A DNA stretch of 64,000 nucleotides from Steroidobacter agaridevorans (GTDB lineage: Bacteria; Pseudomonadota; Gammaproteobacteria; Steroidobacterales; Steroidobacteraceae). The notes under the pieces were generated by a model. That model worked only from the letters and a program-made list of their open reading frames with translations. It did not search any database and was not told the DNA's origin. Shown here in pieces: positions 27,065 to 36,528 of this stretch (positions are counted from its first letter, which is position 1; every line of letters starts with the position of its first letter). The stretch covers positions 281,648 through 345,647 of the forward strand of contig NZ_BLJO01000006.1 of assembly GCF_009932555.1 (NCBI RefSeq), given 5' to 3'. The translations under genes and the position numbers were made by a program.

Positions 27065-27835
27065 CTACTCACGCAGCGATCGCAGGAATTGCGCCGGATC
27101 GTCGCCTCGCTCCAGCACTTCGACCAGCGCCGAGCCAACGATCGCGCCATCGATGAACGGCGCCAGTCGCTGAACCTGCTCGCGACTGCGAATGCCGAAG
27201 CCCGCACACACCGGCACTGGCGAGATTTTCTTCACTCGAGCGAAGTACTCCAGCACTTCCTCGGGCACCGCGACGTTCTTGCCAGTGGTGCCAGTCATGG
27301 TAACCGCATAGATGAATCCGCCGCTGCCTTCGGTGAGCATCTGCATTCGTTCTACTGGTGTCACCGGCGTGACAAACTGAACGAGCGCGAGGCCGCGTGC
27401 GTCCAGCGCATTGCGCAGCTCATGACTTTCCTCGAACGGCAGATCGGGAACGATGAAGCCCGCGATGCCAGCGCGTGCCGCGTCCTCGGGCAGCTTGTCG
27501 ATGCCATAAGCGAGCAGTGGGTTCAGGTAGCTCATCAACAGCAACGGCGCCCGCGGCTTCACTTCCGCGCGCGTCAGCTCCTGCAGAATCCACCGCAACG
27601 AGACTCCTTGCTCCAGAGCTGCGCGACTGGAACGCTGAATCGTCGTGCCGTCCGCCATGGGATCGGTGAATGGCACGCCGACTTCGACGACATCGGCCAC
27701 GGCGCCGACCGCGTTCAGTTGCTGAATGAAGCCTTCCTTTTTGGGAAAGCCCGCGGTGATGTAAGCGATCAACGCCGGTTGGCCGGTCTCACGCCGATCG
27801 CGAATCGCGGTGCTGATGGAATCACGGGCGGGCAT
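27065..27835 (-). CDS. trpA: Tryptophan synthase alpha subunit
   Basis: 256-residue TIM-barrel enzyme that splits indole-3-glycerol phosphate. The catalytic pair Glu51 and Asp62 lies in EVGVPFTDPMADG; GFIVPDLP and GFGIRSREQV are conserved. It is the last gene of trpEGDCFBA. Its ATG overlaps the trpB stop by one base (TGATG), giving tight coupling with its partner subunit. Confidence 0.97.
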   Translation of the reverse strand: MPARDSISTAIRDRRETGQPALIAYITAGFPKKEGFIQQLNAVGAVADVVEVGVPFTDPMADGTTIQRSSRAALEQGVSLRWILQELTRAEVKPRAPLLLMSYLNPLLAYGIDKLPEDAARAGIAGFIVPDLPFEESHELRNALDARGLALVQFVTPVTPVERMQMLTEGSGGFIYAVTMTGTTGKNVAVPEEVLEYFARVKKISPVPVCAGFGIRSREQVQRLAPFIDGAIVGSALVEVLERGDDPAQFLRSLRE

Positions 27836-29079
27836 CAGAGCACATCCTTCAACAGAGTACGTTGCAGCGTCGGCATGTCTTTGTCGCCGCGACCCGAGAG
27901 CGCGATCAGGATGCGCTTGCCGGGATTGGCGAGGGCGTAGCGTTTCGCACCGGCCAGCGCGTGGGACGATTCGATCGCCGGCAGAATGCCTTCGGCCGCA
28001 CAACACTCGGCCAGTGCGGCGAGCGCGTCATCGTCATTCACAGCTTCGTACTTCACGCGATCGATGCTTGCCAGCAGCGCATGCTCGGGACCGACGCCGG
28101 GATAGTCGAGGCCGGCCGACACCGAGTGCGTTTCCTGAATCTGGCCATTCTCGTCTTGTAACAACAAGGAGAAGCAGCCTTGCAGAACGCCCGGCGTACC
28201 GTACGCGATCGACGCCGCGTTCTGACCGAGCCCCGTACCGATGCCGCCCGCTTCGAGACCCAGCATCTGCACGTCTTTGTCTTTGACGAACGGATGGAAC
28301 ATGCCGATCGCGTTCGAGCCGCCACCGACACACGCGACGACCAGATCGGGCAGCTTGCCGGTGCGCTCGAGAATCTGCACACGAGCTTCACGGCCGATGA
28401 CCGACTGCAACTCACGCACGATGTACGGATACGGATGCGGACCGATTGCCGAGCCCAGACAGTAGTACGTGCCATTCGGATCGGATACCCAGTCGCGCAG
28501 CGCTTCATCCACCGCAGCGCGAAGTGTCTTATCGCCGCTGGTGACGGGAACGACCGTCGCGCCGAGCAACTTCATGCGGCCGACGTTGGGCGCCTGGCGC
28601 TCCATGTCGACCGAGCCCATATATACAGTGCAGGGCATGCCCAGGCGCGCGCAGGCGGCGGCCGACGCCACACCGTGTTGGCCCGCGCCAGTTTCAGCAA
28701 TCACTCGCTTCGCCCCGAGCTTCTTCGCCAGCAGCACCTGGCCGATGGAGTTGTTGATCTTGTGCGCGCCGGTGTGCGCGAGATCTTCGCGCTTCAACCA
28801 GATCTCTGCGCCCCACTTTTCGGACAGTGTGCGCGCGAAGGTCAGCGGCGTCGCGCGACCGACCCAATTATGCAGCTCGTCATGAAACTCACGCAGGAAG
28901 TCCGGATCGCGCAGATAGCGGTCGACGCCGACCTGCAGACGGTCGAGCGCCGGCACCAGCGTTTCTGGAATGTAGCGGCCGCCGAACGGCCCGAACCGGC
29001 CGCGCTCGTCGGGGTAGGCGTCCTGCTGGACATTGGCGATCAGCGCCTGCTGCTCGCTCTTGCTCAAGGAATGTTTCAT
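27835..29079 (-). CDS. trpB: Tryptophan synthase beta subunit
   Basis: 414-residue PLP enzyme that condenses indole with serine. The PLP lysine is Lys107 in HTGAHKIN; the phosphate loop is GGGSNAIGMFH. GRFGPFGGRYIPETL marks the N-terminus of TrpB1-type enzymes, which form a tunnelled complex with TrpA. It overlaps trpF upstream by 4 nt and trpA downstream by 1 nt. Confidence 0.98.
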   Translation of the reverse strand: MKHSLSKSEQQALIANVQQDAYPDERGRFGPFGGRYIPETLVPALDRLQVGVDRYLRDPDFLREFHDELHNWVGRATPLTFARTLSEKWGAEIWLKREDLAHTGAHKINNSIGQVLLAKKLGAKRVIAETGAGQHGVASAAACARLGMPCTVYMGSVDMERQAPNVGRMKLLGATVVPVTSGDKTLRAAVDEALRDWVSDPNGTYYCLGSAIGPHPYPYIVRELQSVIGREARVQILERTGKLPDLVVACVGGGSNAIGMFHPFVKDKDVQMLGLEAGGIGTGLGQNAASIAYGTPGVLQGCFSLLLQDENGQIQETHSVSAGLDYPGVGPEHALLASIDRVKYEAVNDDDALAALAECCAAEGILPAIESSHALAGAKRYALANPGKRILIALSGRGDKDMPTLQRTLLKDVL

Positions 29080-29684
29080 TTCACTGCTCCGTTGCCCGCC
29101 GCACGTGCGTTACGGACAAAGTCATAAATCTTTTGCGGATCCTTCACACCGGGCCGCGCTTCCACGCCGCTGCTCACGTCGACGCCGAACGGGCGGGCGA
29201 TCGCAATCGCGTCGGCCACGTTCGCTGGCTTCAGCCCGCCCGCCAGAATCAGCTGCGTTCGTGCAGCGAGCTCGGCAGCTGCCGACCAATCCGTCGTCTC
29301 GCCAGTGCCGCTGACCGGGCCTTCGAACAGCAACCGCGTCGGCAAAGTCGCCGGCAACGCGCGACCTGCGCGAAACACCGGCGTCACTTGCAAGCCAGCG
29401 GGCACCTGCAAGGTCGCGAGGTCATCGACGTCCGTTTGCAGAACGTCAGGTCGGAACTGTGACCATACTTCGTCGAGCTCCGCCTGCGATGGGTGCAACA
29501 TCACCGCGACACGCAGGATGTCACGAGGCACATCGCGCGCCAGCTCGGCCGCCTGGACCGCCGTCACTCGGCGCTTCGACTCCGCGAACACAAAGCCAAC
29601 TGCATCGGCTCGGGCGTCGACCGCCGCCGCAACAGCATCCGCTGTGGTCAGCCCACAGACCTTGACCCAGATGCTCTCGCTCAC
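29076..29684 (-). CDS. trpF: Phosphoribosylanthranilate isomerase
   Basis: 202-residue TIM-barrel isomerase, stand-alone rather than fused to TrpC as in enterics. WVKVCGLTTADA contains the catalytic cysteine; the later LILAGGLKPANV and GVDVSSGVEA phosphate-binding loops are intact. A 58-nt gap separates it from trpC, the only real break in the operon; nothing gene-like was seen in that gap. Confidence 0.96.
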   Translation of the reverse strand: MSESIWVKVCGLTTADAVAAAVDARADAVGFVFAESKRRVTAVQAAELARDVPRDILRVAVMLHPSQAELDEVWSQFRPDVLQTDVDDLATLQVPAGLQVTPVFRAGRALPATLPTRLLFEGPVSGTGETTDWSAAAELAARTQLILAGGLKPANVADAIAIARPFGVDVSSGVEARPGVKDPQKIYDFVRNARAAGNGAVK

Positions 29685-29742
29685 AGCTGGCCCGTGCGCG
29701 TGGTCGCCGCATCGAGGCGAAGCGTTGCAGATCGTAAGGCCA

Positions 29743-30615
29743 TCAGCTCACTTCGCCCTTCGCAATGCGCAGCCTGCGAGTGGCCATGCCCATCGCGGTC
29801 TGACGACCGGTCGAAAGCAACTTGCCCAGCAGTTCTCGCGGCTGCGGCGCTTTCATCAGCGTCGTGCCGATCAAGGCGACGCGGTAACCGAGACTGACGA
29901 TCTTCGTCACGTCATCCAGCGTATTCACTCCGCTCTCGGCAACCGGCGCAAAACCCTGCGGCATGCTATGGGCCAGCTCGGACAGGCGCGACAACTCGAC
30001 GGTGAGCTTGTCGAGATCGCGGCAATTCAGCCCGACCAGGATCTTTTCATCGTGGCTCCGACGCAGCGCCAGCACTTCGCGCGCGATCTCCAGATCGGCG
30101 GCATCGAACGCTTCGAGCAACACAAACATCTTCAACATGCAGGCACAGTCGAGCAGCGCCGTGATGCGACTCTTGTCGAGCATGCGCACGATGACCAGCA
30201 CACCGCCTGCACCCGCCGCGCGACCTTCCATCACCTGGTAAGGATCGATGAGAAAGTCTTTACGCATCACCGGCACGTTGTGAGGAGCGAGCACCTGCGC
30301 GGCGCGCGTCAGGTGTTCGAGCTGACCGCCGAAGCGCACCGGCTCGGTGAGCACGGACACGGCGCATGCACCGCCACATGCATATTCGGTGACGCGGCTT
30401 TCGACATCGCTGGTATTGGCGGACAGATCGCCTGCCGACGGCGAGTGCAGCTTGCACTCGGCGATCACATCGAAACCTTCCGGCGACAGGCGCAACGGCG
30501 GCGCCGGCGGCATATCGCAGGCTCGCGCCCACAACGCCTTTTCGGGTTCGCGCGCACGCGCTTGTTCGAGCCGCGTCTGGCTCGATTGAGTCATTTGAGC
30601 AAGCAGGCCGGACAT
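29743..30615 (-). CDS. trpC: Indole-3-glycerol-phosphate synthase
   Basis: 290-residue TIM-barrel enzyme of the tryptophan pathway. Characteristic motifs are IAECKLHSPSAG, VMRKDFLIDPYQV, LVGLNCRDLDKL and VAESGVN. The family motif is usually KxxSPSxG, and here KLHSPSAG fits it. It is a separate gene, one base downstream of trpD. Confidence 0.95.
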   Translation of the reverse strand: MSGLLAQMTQSSQTRLEQARAREPEKALWARACDMPPAPPLRLSPEGFDVIAECKLHSPSAGDLSANTSDVESRVTEYACGGACAVSVLTEPVRFGGQLEHLTRAAQVLAPHNVPVMRKDFLIDPYQVMEGRAAGAGGVLVIVRMLDKSRITALLDCACMLKMFVLLEAFDAADLEIAREVLALRRSHDEKILVGLNCRDLDKLTVELSRLSELAHSMPQGFAPVAESGVNTLDDVTKIVSLGYRVALIGTTLMKAPQPRELLGKLLSTGRQTAMGMATRRLRIAKGEVS

Positions 30616-30616
30616 G

Positions 30617-31656
30617 TCAGCGCCCCTGGCTCGCGGCCGATTGCTTCTGGCCGAAAGCCGTCAATTTTTCCAACAGGCGCCGCCCGGCGCCGCTCTCGAT
30701 GGCGTCCTGCGCCATGTGCGCTGCATCCTGCGCCGAAGCGGCTTTGCCCAGCAATTCGAGCACGAGAGCGGCCTGTAAGATCAACGCGTTGCGATGGGCA
30801 CCCTGTTCCCGGCCTTCCAGAACGGCGCGCAGATGCTCGGCGTTATAGGCCGCATCGCCGCCCTTCAACTCTTCGACGCTGCACTGGGGCAGCATGAATT
30901 CCTCGGCACTGCGCGTCGAGCGCACGACCTTGCCGGGCGTGACATCGAACACCGTGAACGGCCCGATCGGCGTCGCTTCATCCCAGCCCGACGCACCGTG
31001 CACGACGTAAGCACGCTTCAGCGGCATGCCCGCCATCGTCTCGGCCATCAATTCCGCGATATCGACGTTGTACGCGCCGATCAAATGAAAGTCGGGTTCG
31101 GCGGGATTCGACAAGGGGCCCAGAATATTGAACACGGTACGGACACCGAGCGCCTGTCGGATCGGCATCACCGCTTTCATCGCCGGGTGGTAGTGAGGCG
31201 CAAAGAAGAACGTAAAGCTGGTCGCATCCAGACACTCGCCCGACGCTCGCTCATCGAGCGGCAAGCCCAGTCCAAGCGCGCGGATGACATCGGCGCTGCC
31301 GCTGCGACTGGAAACAGAACTGGTGCCGTGCTTCGCGACGCGAATGCCCATCGACGCAACCAACAACGCCGCACCGGTGGAAAGATTGAAGCTGCCCGAA
31401 CCATCGCCGCCCGTACCGACCATGTCGACCAGCGGACCACCGGGCGATAACTCCGGGCGACGCGCGAGCTTGCGCATGCTCTTCGCGAAACCGCGCACTT
31501 CATCCGCCGTCACGCCCTTGGCGCGCAATGCTGCGAGAACAGCGCCGCCCATGGCCGGCGCCAACGTGGGATCCGTCAACGCGACGAGCAGCTCCGAAGC
31601 TTCCTGTTCGCTCAGGTTGGTGCGATCGAGCAATCGTTCCAGCGTCTGGCGCATGG

Positions 31657-31660
<4 letters not shown>
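30617..31660 (-). CDS. trpD: Anthranilate phosphoribosyltransferase
   Basis: 347-residue enzyme that transfers phosphoribosyl from PRPP to anthranilate. [16 protein letters not shown] is the PRPP-binding loop; [16 protein letters not shown] and [12 protein letters not shown] are conserved. It overlaps the trpG stop by 4 nt and is not fused to TrpG, unlike the enteric enzyme. Confidence 0.97.
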
Positions 31661-32258
<598 letters not shown>

Positions 32259-32262
<4 letters not shown>

Positions 32263-33644
32263 AGCCCCTCCTCCGCCAACGCCAGCGCACGGCGCACGAT
32301 GGCGCTCTTGGCCAGGACTTCTTGATATTCCGCAGCGGGGACGCTGTCTGCGACCACACCCGCGCCCGCTTGATAACTATAGGTATCGCCGCGGAACACC
32401 ATCGTACGAATGGTGATTGCGTGATCCATGTCGCCGCCATGACCGAAGTAGCCGACGGTGCCGCCGTAGAAGCCGCGTCGCACGGGCTCCAGTTCGTCGA
32501 TGATTTCCATCGCGCGCACTTTTGGCGCTCCAACCAGCGTGCCAGCGGGAAACGCGGCAGCAAACAAATCGAAGGCATCTTTGCCTGGAGCGAGCTCGCC
32601 GTTCACACCGCTGACGATGTGCATCACGTGGCTGTAGCGCTCGATGCTGCGATAAGGATTCACATTGACGGTGCCGGCCTTCGCCACCCGACCCAGGTCG
32701 TTGCGAGCCAGATCGACCAGCATGATGTGCTCGGCGTTTTCTTTCGGATCGGCGAGCAGTTCTTTTTGCAGCAAGGCATCTTCGACCGAGTCGCGCCCGC
32801 GCGGCCGGGTGCCAGCAATCGGACGCATCGACCCGCGACCGCGCGACAGCTTCACCAGCGCTTCGGGCGACGAGCCCACGATGGTCGAGTCGCCGAGCTC
32901 GCAGAAATACATATAAGGAGAAGGATTCAGCAGACGCAGCGCCCGATACGCTTCGAACGGCTCCAGCTCGCACAGGCCGGCGAAGCGCACCGACAACACC
33001 AGCTGATACACATCGCCGGCGGCGATGTACTCCTTCACTCGATGCACGCCCTGGATGTACTGCTCTTCGCTCAGGCTGCCCACGGCCGGCGAATACTTGA
33101 TCTTCTTGTCGCTCGGGGGAATGGCGCCGCGTAACGCCTTCACCACCTCGCGACGCAGAGCCACTCGCTCGCTTTCACTGCCGGCGTGCAAGAGCGCGAC
33201 GCCGCGAGTGAGATGGTCGAAGACCAGAAGCGATCGAGGCGCGAGGTAGTGCGCTTCGGGAGTGGGCTCGGCCAGCGGAGTTCGCGGCGGCAGTCGCTCG
33301 AAGCGTCGCACCAGGTCGTAGCTCGCGGCGCCGACCAAGCCGCCCGGCAAGGGCACGCCGGGAATCTGAGGACTGGGCTGTGGGGCGCGAGCCAATGCAC
33401 TGCGCAGTGCACTCAGCAATTCAGCCTGGGTTTGTGGCGGCGGACCGATGCGCCCGTCGATGCTCAAGCCCCGCTCGTCGAGCCGGACTTCCAGGCAGTC
33501 GCCAAAGCCGATGAACGAATACCGCGCCAGACGCTCGCCGCCCTCGACGCTTTCCAGCAAAAAGCGCGGCTTGAAGGGCTTGAGCTTCAGATAGGCCGAG
33601 ACTGGTGTGTCCAGGTCTGCGGCGATGTCGAAGGGTGGTTGCAA
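32259..33644 (-). CDS. trpE: Anthranilate synthase component I
   Basis: 461-residue chorismate-utilising enzyme. The feedback-inhibition motif [17 protein letters not shown] is present near the N-terminus, and [20 protein letters not shown] and [12 protein letters not shown] mark the catalytic domain. The start is TTG at 33644, supported by GAGGA 7 nt upstream; no closer ATG occurs. The protein is shorter than many TrpE proteins (about 500) because of a shorter N-terminal region. Transcription is controlled by the attenuator 50 nt upstream. Confidence 0.95.
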
Positions 33645-33693: not shown

Positions 33694-33732
33694 TAAAAAA
33701 CCCATCTCCGGATCGGTGCGCGGAGATGGGTT
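33694..33732 (-). terminator. trp attenuator terminator (regions 3 and 4)
   Basis: Read on the reverse strand, AACCCATCTCCG pairs perfectly with CGGAGATGGGTT around a 10-nt loop, followed directly by six T. The 12-bp stem at 33699-33710 / 33721-33732 lies 50 nt before trpE. Region 2 (GGAGAGGG, 33791-33784) can pair with CCCATCTCC of region 3 through one bulged A, giving the alternative antiterminator. Confidence 0.92.
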
Positions 33733-33760
33733 CTTTGGATGCTTGACTAGTGTGTGTTTG

Positions 33761-33838
33761 TTACGCCCAACAAGCTCCAGCGGCCCTCTCCTGTGAGGGT
33801 CGCCACCACCAGCGGTGAATTGCGAGCGACGTAGTCAT
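33761..33838 (-). CDS. trpL: trp operon leader peptide, 25 residues with WWW
   Basis: ATG at 33838 opens a 26-codon frame reading MTTSLAIHRWWWRPSQE followed by RAAGACWA and TAA. Codons 10-12 are three consecutive tryptophans and codon 24 is a fourth. Such Trp runs are the sensing element of trp attenuation: stalling at codons 10-12 (33811-33803) would cover region 1 (GACCCTC, 33801-33795) and release region 2 to form the antiterminator. No Shine-Dalgarno sequence is seen upstream; the ATG may lie at or very near the transcript start. Too short for ordinary ORF calling. Confidence 0.9.
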   Translation of the reverse strand: MTTSLAIHRWWWRPSQERAAGACWA

Positions 33839-33846
33839 GCGCGTGA

Positions 33847-33875
33847 GTATTACCGGCCGCCCGAGGGGGAGTCAA
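33847..33875 (-). promoter_or_regulatory. trp operon promoter
   Basis: On the reverse strand TTGACT (33875-33870) and TAATAC (33852-33847) are separated by exactly 17 nt, a good sigma-70 layout. The leader-peptide ATG begins only 8 nt after the -10 element. A TrpR-type operator was not recognised with confidence. Confidence 0.7.
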
Positions 33876-34060: not shown

Positions 34061-35473
34061 ATGGCGTCGAATCTGCTGGCCGGAAGTATCGCGGTGGTGC
34101 TGAGCCTGGCGGCCGCCGGTACACAAGCCGACGAGCTGTCGGAGCTGCGTGATCGGCTGGAAGCCCAGGAGCAGAGGATCCGCATTCTCGAGCGCAAGCT
34201 GGAATTGAGTGAGGAAGCCGCGAAGGCCGCCGCCCCGACGACGCCGGTCGTGCGCGCCTCGCCTCAGCAGGGCTTCCGCATTCAATCGGCTGATGGCGCG
34301 AACGTCGCGCGCTTTCGCGGCGTACTGCATTTCGATGGCCGTTACTTCGCGGACGATGTCACGCCGGAGACCGCCGACACCTGGCTTCTACGCCGAGTGC
34401 GTCCGACGCTCGAAGGCACGTTCAATAACATTTATGACTTTCGGTTCACGCCGGACTTCGCCGGCGGTCGCACGATCATTCTCGATGCATTCGTCGCTGC
34501 GCGTTTGAAGCCGTGGGCCGTCGTCACCGCGGGCAAGTTCAAAGTGCCGGTCGGTCTGGAGCGCCTGGTCTCGTCCACCGACCTCCGCTTCATCGAGCGC
34601 GGCTTGCCAACCAGCCTCGTTCCCAATCGCGATCTGGGTCTGCAACTGGGCGGCGACCTCTCCGGCGGCGTAGTGAATTACTCACTCGGCTATTTCAACG
34701 GCGTCAGCGACGGTAGCAGCAGCGACAGCAACACACCGAACGCGGATGCCGAGAACGACACCAAAGGGGATTGGGCGGCTCGCGTGTTCGTCCAACCTTT
34801 CCTGAACTCGGACAACTTCGCATTGCGCGGCCTCGGCTTCGGCATCGCAGGCACCTATGTGAATTCGACTGGCAGCACGACGACCACACTTCTGCCCAGC
34901 TATCGCACGCCCGGGCAGCAAACATTCTTCAGCTATCGCGGCACGACGGCCGGTGTCAACGGCACGATCGCCGATGGCGAGCGCTTGCGCTGGACGCCGC
35001 AGGCGTACTACTCGATCGGCAGCTTCGGCGTGCTCGGCGAGTATGTGACAGTTTCTCAAGAGGTGTCCCGACTGACGCCGACCGCGGGACTGCGCCGTGA
35101 CACGCTCGACAACACGGCCTGGCAAGTGCAGTTCGCTTGGTTCGCGACCGGCGAGGATGAATCGTTCCGCGGCTTCACGCCGCAATCCATCTTCGATCCC
35201 AGCCAAGGCACGTGGGGCGCGCTCGAGTTGGTTGCTCGCTATCACGAGCTCGATATCGATGACGACGCGTTCATCGGCGGCGCCGATTCGTTTGCGAATC
35301 CCGCGAGCGCTGCCAGCAAGGCCAGCGCCTGGGGCGTGGGCGTGAACTGGTATCTGACCCAGAACTACAAGTGGTCGCTCAACTACGACGTCACCAGCTT
35401 CGATGGCGGCGCCGCCGCCGGCGACCGTGCGGACGAAAAAGCTCTGTTCACCCGCTTCGCGGTGGGCTTCTGA
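34061..35473 (+). CDS. OprP/OprO-type outer-membrane porin
   Basis: 470-residue outer-membrane beta-barrel of the phosphate-selective porin family. It has a signal peptide ([19 protein letters not shown]), a short coiled coil ([20 protein letters not shown]) and a barrel with [14 protein letters not shown] and a C-terminal aromatic residue (RFAVGF). OprP binds phosphate or pyrophosphate, but the next gene encodes a sulfate-binding protein, so this homologue may favour sulfate, which is inference. The ATG at 34061 follows GGGGGG; the upstream extension has no signal peptide. Confidence 0.86.
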
Positions 35474-35505
35474 TTTTTCTTTGTCATTACCGGAGAGAAC
35501 GACAC

Positions 35506-36528
35506 ATGACCGGCTTCAGGATTTTTTCATGGCGCCGCTGGGCGGGCATCGCGCTCGCCGGCCTGGCGTTGAGCGGTCCGGTGGCGCAGGCCGCCGATGT
35601 GAGTCTGATGAATGTTTCTTACGATCCGACGCGCGAACTGTACGAGGAGTACAACAAGGCGTTCGCGGCGCATTGGGAAAAGCAGACCGGCGACAAGGTC
35701 ACGATCAAACAATCGCACGGCGGCTCGGGCAAACAGGCGCGCACCGTCATCGACGGCTTGCCGGCCGATGTCGTGACGCTGGCGCTCGCGGGCGACATCG
35801 ACGCCCTTGCCTCCACGGGCAAGCTGCTGCCGGTGAACTGGCAGTCCCGCCTGCCGCACAACTCCTCGCCCTACACTTCGACCATCGTGTTCCTGGTGCG
35901 CAAGGGCAATCCGAAGGGCATCAAGGACTGGGGCGATTTGATCAAGCCGGGCGTGCAAGTGATCACGCCGAATCCCAAGACCTCGGGCGGCGCGCGCTGG
36001 AACTATCTCGCGGCCTGGGCCTGGGCGTTGAAGCAGCCGGGCGGCAGCGAGGCTTCGGCGAAGGAATATACGAAGAAGCTGTTCAGTCACGTGCCGGTGC
36101 TCGACACCGGCGCTCGAGGCGCGACGACGACGTTCGTTCAACGCGGCATCGGTGACGTATTGCTGGCGTGGGAAAACGAAGCGTTCCTGTCCATCAAGGA
36201 ACTGGGCCCGGACAAGGTGGAAATCGTGGTGCCGAGCCTGAGCATTCTGGCCGAGCCGCCGGTGACGGTGGTCGACAAGGTGGTGCTGCGTCGGGGCACG
36301 CGAGAGGTGGCGACCGAGTACTTGAAGTATCTGTACAGCCCGGAGGCCCAGGAAATCATCGCGAAGAATTTCTACCGCCCGATCGATCCGACGGTGGCTG
36401 CGAAGTACCAGAAGACGTTCCCGAAGTTGAACCTGGTGACGATCAAGGATTTCGGCGGGTGGGCGCAGGCGCAGAAGGTGCACTTCGCGGATGGTGGCGT
36501 GTTCGATCAGATTTACGCGCCGGAGTAA
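35506..36528 (+). CDS. sbp: Sulfate-binding periplasmic protein
   Basis: 340-residue substrate-binding protein of sulfate ABC transporters. The signal peptide ends in [33 protein letters not shown] and [21 protein letters not shown] are the sulfate/thiosulfate-binding family motifs. GGAGAG precedes the ATG at 35506. It lies 32 nt after the porin and is likely co-transcribed. A second, lipoprotein version is encoded with the permease genes at 54444-55529, so this one probably feeds the same transporter. Confidence 0.93.

Follow-up and report, generated by a model that had tools for sequence, protein, structure and literature searches.

The window, by which we mean the whole 64,000-nt stretch of DNA analysed here, lies on contig 6 of its 8.0 Mb source genome and carries a tryptophan biosynthesis operon on the minus strand. 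The gene order is trpE-G-D-C-F-B-A and all genes are unfused, as the initial annotation had stated; this agrees with matches to NCBIfam profiles. Scores exceeded the cut-offs for trpG, trpD, trpB and trpA, and the best matches of trpE, trpC and trpF were below theirs. For TrpE (461 residues), the TIGR00564 match of 486.1 bits was somewhat under the cut-off of 517.7, and its closest relatives of solved structure are anthranilate synthase component 1. Directly 5' of trpE we find a leader with the elements of a ribosome-controlled switch. The features of the locus are as follows.

33846..33875, minus strand: predicted promoter, with TTGACT (33875-33870), 18 nt, and AATACT (33851-33846); the start codon follows after 7 nt
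33838-33694, minus strand: the whole trp leader, 145 nt, 5' of trpE
33761..33838, minus strand: trpL leader peptide ORF, ATG at 33838, 25 sense codons (MTTSLAIHRWWWRPSQERAAGACWA), TAA at 33763-33761
33803..33811, minus strand: regulatory Trp codons 10-12, within trpL
33795..33799, minus strand: region 1 (CCCTC), which pairs with the final five bases of region 2 in a weak protector hairpin
33784..33791, minus strand: region 2 (GGAGAGGG), the 5' strand of the antiterminator
33736..33779, minus strand: extension helix of the antiterminator, TGGAGCTTG (33779-33771) with CAAGC (33745-33741) and TCCA (33739-33736)
33721..33732, minus strand: region 3 (AACCCATCTCCG), the 5' arm of the terminator, of which 33730-33722 doubles as the 3' strand of the antiterminator
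33695..33710, minus strand: region 4 and the T6 tract, the 3' half of the intrinsic terminator
32259..33644, minus strand: trpE, first gene of the operon, with a TTG start and a Shine-Dalgarno-like GAGGA (33656-33652) 7 nt upstream
27065..32262, minus strand: trpG, trpD, trpC, trpF, trpB and trpA, as separate ORFs

The observation at 33838-33694 is confirmed. As had been noted from the letters, a 25-codon leader frame with Trp at codons 10-12 precedes a perfect 12-bp terminator, in which AACCCATCTCCG (33732-33721) and CGGAGATGGGTT (33710-33699) form 12 Watson-Crick pairs around a loop of 10 nt; two T of the T6 tract (33700-33695) also belong to the stem. Because this loop exceeds the 8-nt limit of a consensus terminator scan, that scan of the window did not list the leader terminator. 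The claimed pairing of region 2 with region 3 is likewise present, with GGAGAGGG and CCCATCTCC (33730-33722) making a core of 8 bp with one bulged A, and it is prolonged by the extension helix (TGGAGCTTG/CAAGCaTCCA), whose apical end holds the leader stop codon. Folding of the leader RNA, which had been proposed as a check, placed the 145 nt at 3.8 sd below dinucleotide shuffles, and 1 of 200 shuffles was as stable. A search of the source genome with the exact region 3/4 pattern returned this copy only, a search that divergent copies would escape. The segment TGGTGGTGG occurs twice in the window (shuffle expectation 0.15 per window; a count reached by 1 of 100 shuffles), the second copy being at 34037-34029 on the minus strand, ~200 nt upstream of the leader, where it looks like a chance occurrence. 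Further upstream, the plus strand carries divergent ORFs (34061-36528), which we presume from their reading to encode an outer-membrane porin and a sulfate-binding transport protein.

The occurrence of the leader was determined in 148 regions upstream of trpE (30 loci and 118 fetched regions, the window included), taken from at least 197 genomes of the window's family with a match; G081 and G193 were omitted as truncated, and the remaining genomes had weaker or unlisted matches. A tandem-Trp leader, defined as a TGGTGG run in a short ATG-started ORF, was found in 142 of these 148 regions, with a run of three Trp codons in 98 leaders, two in 41 and four in 3. Among the six exceptions, L167 starts its leader with GTG, L190 replaces the Trp run by W-R-W, L148 runs off the contig end with its terminator kept, and L110, L112 and L214 are without the attenuator. 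L110 and L112, which share one genus code, keep the promoter and the start codon and lack everything from the Trp run through the terminator; these apparent natural deletions of the attenuator offer ready natural comparisons. Elsewhere in the order, 22 of 23 genomes matched; we counted the 17 full-length, close TrpE loci, which come from 12 families, the rest being weaker matches. The leader was present in 15 of these 17 (L238 has W-R-W and L249 is without the attenuator); of the 12 other families, 11 have the strict leader and one has W-R-W. Outside this count are the partial L251 and the distant TrpE-like L252 (49% identity); L252 has no attenuator, and its inclusion gives 15/18. A separate group of 17 named loci (L002-L018, TrpE identity at least 63%) had the leader in 15, the attenuator being absent from L015 and L017. 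In 153 of the 157 leaders (142 of the family and 15 of other families) a terminator follows downstream. Since the leaders are related, none of these counts are independent.

Apart from the Trp run and its flanks, the leader peptides vary widely; W24 of the window's peptide, for instance, is shared by 3 of the 5 nearest leaders. Such variation gives no support to the idea that the peptide acts in trans.

For the structural comparisons, leaders without the respective motif or terminator were dropped, leaving from the 157 leaders 152 for the 2:3 duplex, 156 for spacing and stop position and 151 for folding. Pair counts are those of all 101 non-redundant leaders, from which an earlier set of 76 had been hand-picked; the patterns for the promoter and for regions 2 and 3 were composed after inspecting the sequences. 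In the terminator, 94.1% of the cells held standard pairs (29-58% in slid pairings), both sides had changed at 8 of the 12 pairs, and none of 500 shuffles reached any of five measures. The region 2:3 core was paired in 96.0% of the cells vs 48-72% in slid pairings and was nearly invariant, and its covariation did not go beyond that of shuffles (three measures were reached in 65 to 76 of 500 shuffles and one in 23). Such near-invariance would be expected of a segment with two partners, and we read it as conservation, not covariation. The comparison with relatives by which the initial annotation could have been refuted came out in its favour: the Trp run and the pairing of the 2:3 core are conserved, the latter without covariation, and the terminator pairs covary. 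The 2:3 duplex had a median energy of -15.9 kcal/mol, and in 112 of 152 leaders at most 5 of 100 shuffles were as good. The two sides of the extension helix matched each other better when taken from one leader than when swapped among leaders (mean -8.21 vs -6.87 kcal/mol, 151 leaders), a difference to which shared ancestry can contribute, with none of 2000 swaps as good; the 76-leader set gave the same result. In L156, L174, L182, L188, L192, L208 and related leaders, region 3 is shortened by one base (CCCATTCCG), the 2:3 pairing is continuous, and in some of them region 4 has changed to match.

Counted from the last Trp codon, the distance to the start of region 2 is 11-15 nt in 146 of 156 leaders (11 nt in the window). 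A ribosome whose A site is occupied by that codon has a footprint ending just short of region 2. When the footprint of such a stalled ribosome was removed from the fold, region 2 paired with region 3 in 150 of 151 leaders. With no stalled ribosome and the RNA folded up to region 3, the 1:2 hairpin formed in 89 of the 151 and the 2:3 pairing persisted in 48; once region 4 was included, region 3 paired downstream in 143. Applied to E. coli as a control, the same procedure returned 2:3 with the ribosome stalled and the upstream hairpin without it. The 1:2 hairpin of the window is weak (-9.3 kcal/mol, or -14.9 for a longer segment), and a one-position (single-column) test of 1:2 covariation was not clean. 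In the unstalled window fold up to region 3, the 2:3 pairing wins and 1:2 is absent; termination there must therefore come from ribosome movement or kinetics.

These results support, at the level of sequence, the original interpretation of the leader as a trp attenuator, and we consider it very probable that it is a ribosome-mediated transcription attenuator of the trpEGDCFBA operon. The Trp codons, the paired segments, their spacing, the terminator covariation and the promoter position are what sequence and comparison provide; leaderless initiation, termination, the Trp response and attenuation as the main Trp control are the parts that we infer. In the proposed mechanism, transcription would start at the leader AUG or a few bases from it, and a ribosome would load onto the 5' end of the nascent RNA. 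If charged tRNA-Trp is scarce, this ribosome would stall at codons 10-12 and cover region 1, while region 2, which begins 11 nt downstream, would stay available for pairing with region 3; the long antiterminator hairpin would then hold region 3 off region 4, and polymerase would continue into trpE. If Trp is plentiful, the ribosome would pass region 2 and the 5' arm of the antiterminator to reach the stop codon at 33763. This arm would be held open during the emergence of regions 3 and 4, which would form the terminator.

A lone intrinsic terminator would look identical in a single genome. The hairpin might be a constitutive terminator, or mark where a transcript from upstream ends; its place after a Trp-rich short ORF would then be accidental, and it would not switch with Trp. 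However, the Trp codons and regions 2, 3 and 4 recur at similar spacing in the window's family and 12 other families, a promoter stands directly in front of the leader, and the position of the stop codon is constrained, all of which make such a coincidence very improbable. We regard it as equally improbable that the leader peptide controls the translation of trpE instead of transcription, a use to which leader ORFs near structural genes are put in other systems, as the switch ends in a stem and T6 tract ~50 nt before trpE and the GAGGA of trpE lies outside all four regions.

We then come to how translation of the leader would begin. Of the 142 family leaders, 141 have a sigma-70-like promoter whose end is 3-11 nt (6-10 nt in 136) from the first in-frame start codon downstream. 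The strict elements were frequent among these 141 leaders (-35 TTGAC in 123, -10 NATACT in 124); the pattern had been relaxed to admit the variant of one subclade (TTGTAT, GATAGG). Measured likewise in E. coli, from what we take to be its -10 element, the distance to the AUG is 33 nt. Since transcription starts ~7 nt past the -10 hexamer, the 5' UTR of the family leaders should be 0-5 nt. In 4 leaders the spacing is 3 nt, so the first in-frame start would precede the transcript and a later start must serve. The closeness of this conserved promoter to the start codon suggests a probably leaderless trpL mRNA. That the leader instead has a normal 5' UTR, transcribed from a more distant promoter, would be compatible with attenuation but appears unlikely to us, though less so than the two alternatives above: promoter position is the one line of evidence for the leaderless start, the pattern was both written and relaxed with the sequences in view, and 6 of 15 other-family leaders fall outside it (9 fit). 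Against such an upstream promoter stand the near-complete fit within the family, with its well-kept hexamers, and the short distance to the first in-frame start compared with E. coli.

With regard to a Trp repressor, the TrpR profile TIGR01321 was over its cut-off in 0 of 40 relatives, with weaker matches in 32, and the E. coli control passed. CTAG, presumably the core of a TrpR site, was present in 4 of 142 promoter regions. Matches to the Pfam TrpR profile, over the cut-off in 50 of 60 relatives, had first suggested dual control by TrpR and the attenuator. The source genome has one match to the TrpR superfamily (L294:2955-3302, contig 2), a YerC/YecD-type protein (TIGR02531, 79.1 bits) encoded directly before hisG. 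Dual control was set aside because of this assignment and the TIGR01321 result; the typing covers the protein of the source genome only, and not the Pfam TrpR matches of other genomes. The YerC/YecD-type protein is likely the HisR of the his operon, and its position fits the pattern given in the accessible part of PMC9413887, in which HisR is the first his-operon gene in most Proteobacteria that have it. Incomplete genomes could possibly account for the missing TrpR, and another regulator may be at work. Attenuation may work here without a Trp repressor, and since no TrpR was found, it would be the main Trp control.

The position of the leader stop codon divides the leaders into two classes. 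Its first base lies 2-7 nt before the start of region 2 in 81 of 156 leaders, and 10-31 nt after it in the other 75, which we call the read-through class and which includes the window (28 nt). In this class the own reading frame has a stop no more than 31 nt from region 2 in 75 of 75 leaders, compared with 9 and 10 of 75 for the other two frames, and in 58 of 73 the stop is at most 6 nt from the end of the predicted 5' arm of the antiterminator, or beyond it. When mapped on a TrpE tree (63 rows, 59 labelled), stop class required at least nine changes, or six if only starred branches were counted, with the reservation that this is a quick tree with several long branches. On this tree the read-through class looks derived in the window's genus. 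A trade-off of stop class against 1:2 stability failed, as the classes did not differ in that stability (p 0.35).

According to the accessible part of Elf and Ehrenberg 2005 (PMC1183508), a stop far downstream in region II is one route to low basal readthrough under attenuation-only control, and a fast blocking structure is an alternative route. We looked for the latter by comparing 1:2 stability in the two stop classes, and found no difference. We put forward tentatively, with the balance leaning slightly against it, that this lineage has leaderless, repressor-free trp attenuators throughout, in which the stop would have moved repeatedly between a site just before the antiterminator and one near the end of its 5' arm, such that the ribosome would either block the antiterminator or plough it open. 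If true, the two-stop family would be a natural test of whether attenuators in sole control lower basal readthrough by delaying translation termination; the two recurrent stop positions make this published prediction testable.

Among the closest known systems is the E. coli trpL-trpEDCBA leader, with which the window shares tandem Trp codons, regions 1-4 and an intrinsic terminator before trpE; 16 of the 157 leader peptides end in WWRHS or WWRTS, similar to WWRTS of E. coli. In E. coli, trpGD and trpCF are fused, whereas trpG/trpD and trpC/trpF of the window are not. E. coli also has TrpR, which was not found in the 40 relatives, 33 nt from -10 to AUG as opposed to 3-11 nt in the family leaders, and its leader stop before region 2, whereas that of the window comes after it. 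The initial annotation had seen the whole E. coli-type logic at this locus. This holds for the Trp codons, the terminator and the 2:3 pairing; it does not extend to the probably leaderless start, the TrpR that was not found, the stop after region 2 and the weak 1:2 hairpin.

An Rfam search of the window matched nothing, the Trp_leader family RF00513 included. Gene and mechanism are alike in that family, but its sequence model fails to match here. In the relatives, RF00513 was over its gathering score in 0 of 40, with some match at E up to 1 in 28; the best of these sub-threshold matches (34.9 bits vs 41) lies in G060 on a contig other than the trpE contig, and they were treated as chance.

Other known systems resemble the window in part. 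As far as the accessible text of PMC7298713 goes, the trpL RNA of Sinorhizobium meliloti trpLE(G) starts with its ATG and attenuation operates without repression, both of which are predicted for the window. This is, however, an Alphaproteobacterium with a 14-residue peptide and trpE(G), and trans activity is reported there for the trpL RNA and the peptide, unlike the widely varying peptides found here. The Shewanella trp operon, in the parts of PMC5343134 available, is a gammaproteobacterial case of attenuator control outside the TrpR regulon, but Shewanella does have TrpR. The Salmonella his attenuator, within what could be consulted on the rule of Elf and Ehrenberg, is similar in that attenuation is the sole control, and differs in the amino acid and in that the single lineage studied here has both stop positions. 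No report of trp attenuation in the window's lineage was among the open-access matches listed; Vitreschak 2004, Merino 2008 and Panina 2001 may mention it. The present data extend classical trp attenuation to this gammaproteobacterial lineage with 157 sequence examples. Here the switch goes together with a leader predicted to be leaderless and with TrpR not found, a combination reported for an alphaproteobacterium. The mechanism itself is a known one and is well supported by the sequence comparisons; the points of interest are that its start is predicted to be leaderless, that TrpR is missing and that the stop can move.

Beyond the family, the region 3 motif was present in 0 of 28 loci (28 examined of 46 matching gammaproteobacterial genomes). 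In L271 and L275 a short ORF ends in WW, and others have different Trp-containing short ORFs. L267, L271, L275, L278, L283 and L284, from other gammaproteobacterial families, carry before trpE a short ORF containing TGGCGATGG or CGATGGTGG, which encodes W-R-W or a similar motif; this is possibly another attenuator type. Two further records, L030 (a rumen bacterium) and L043 (Deltaproteobacteria), have a short ORF with a WWW run before trpE, and these are possible independent attenuators.
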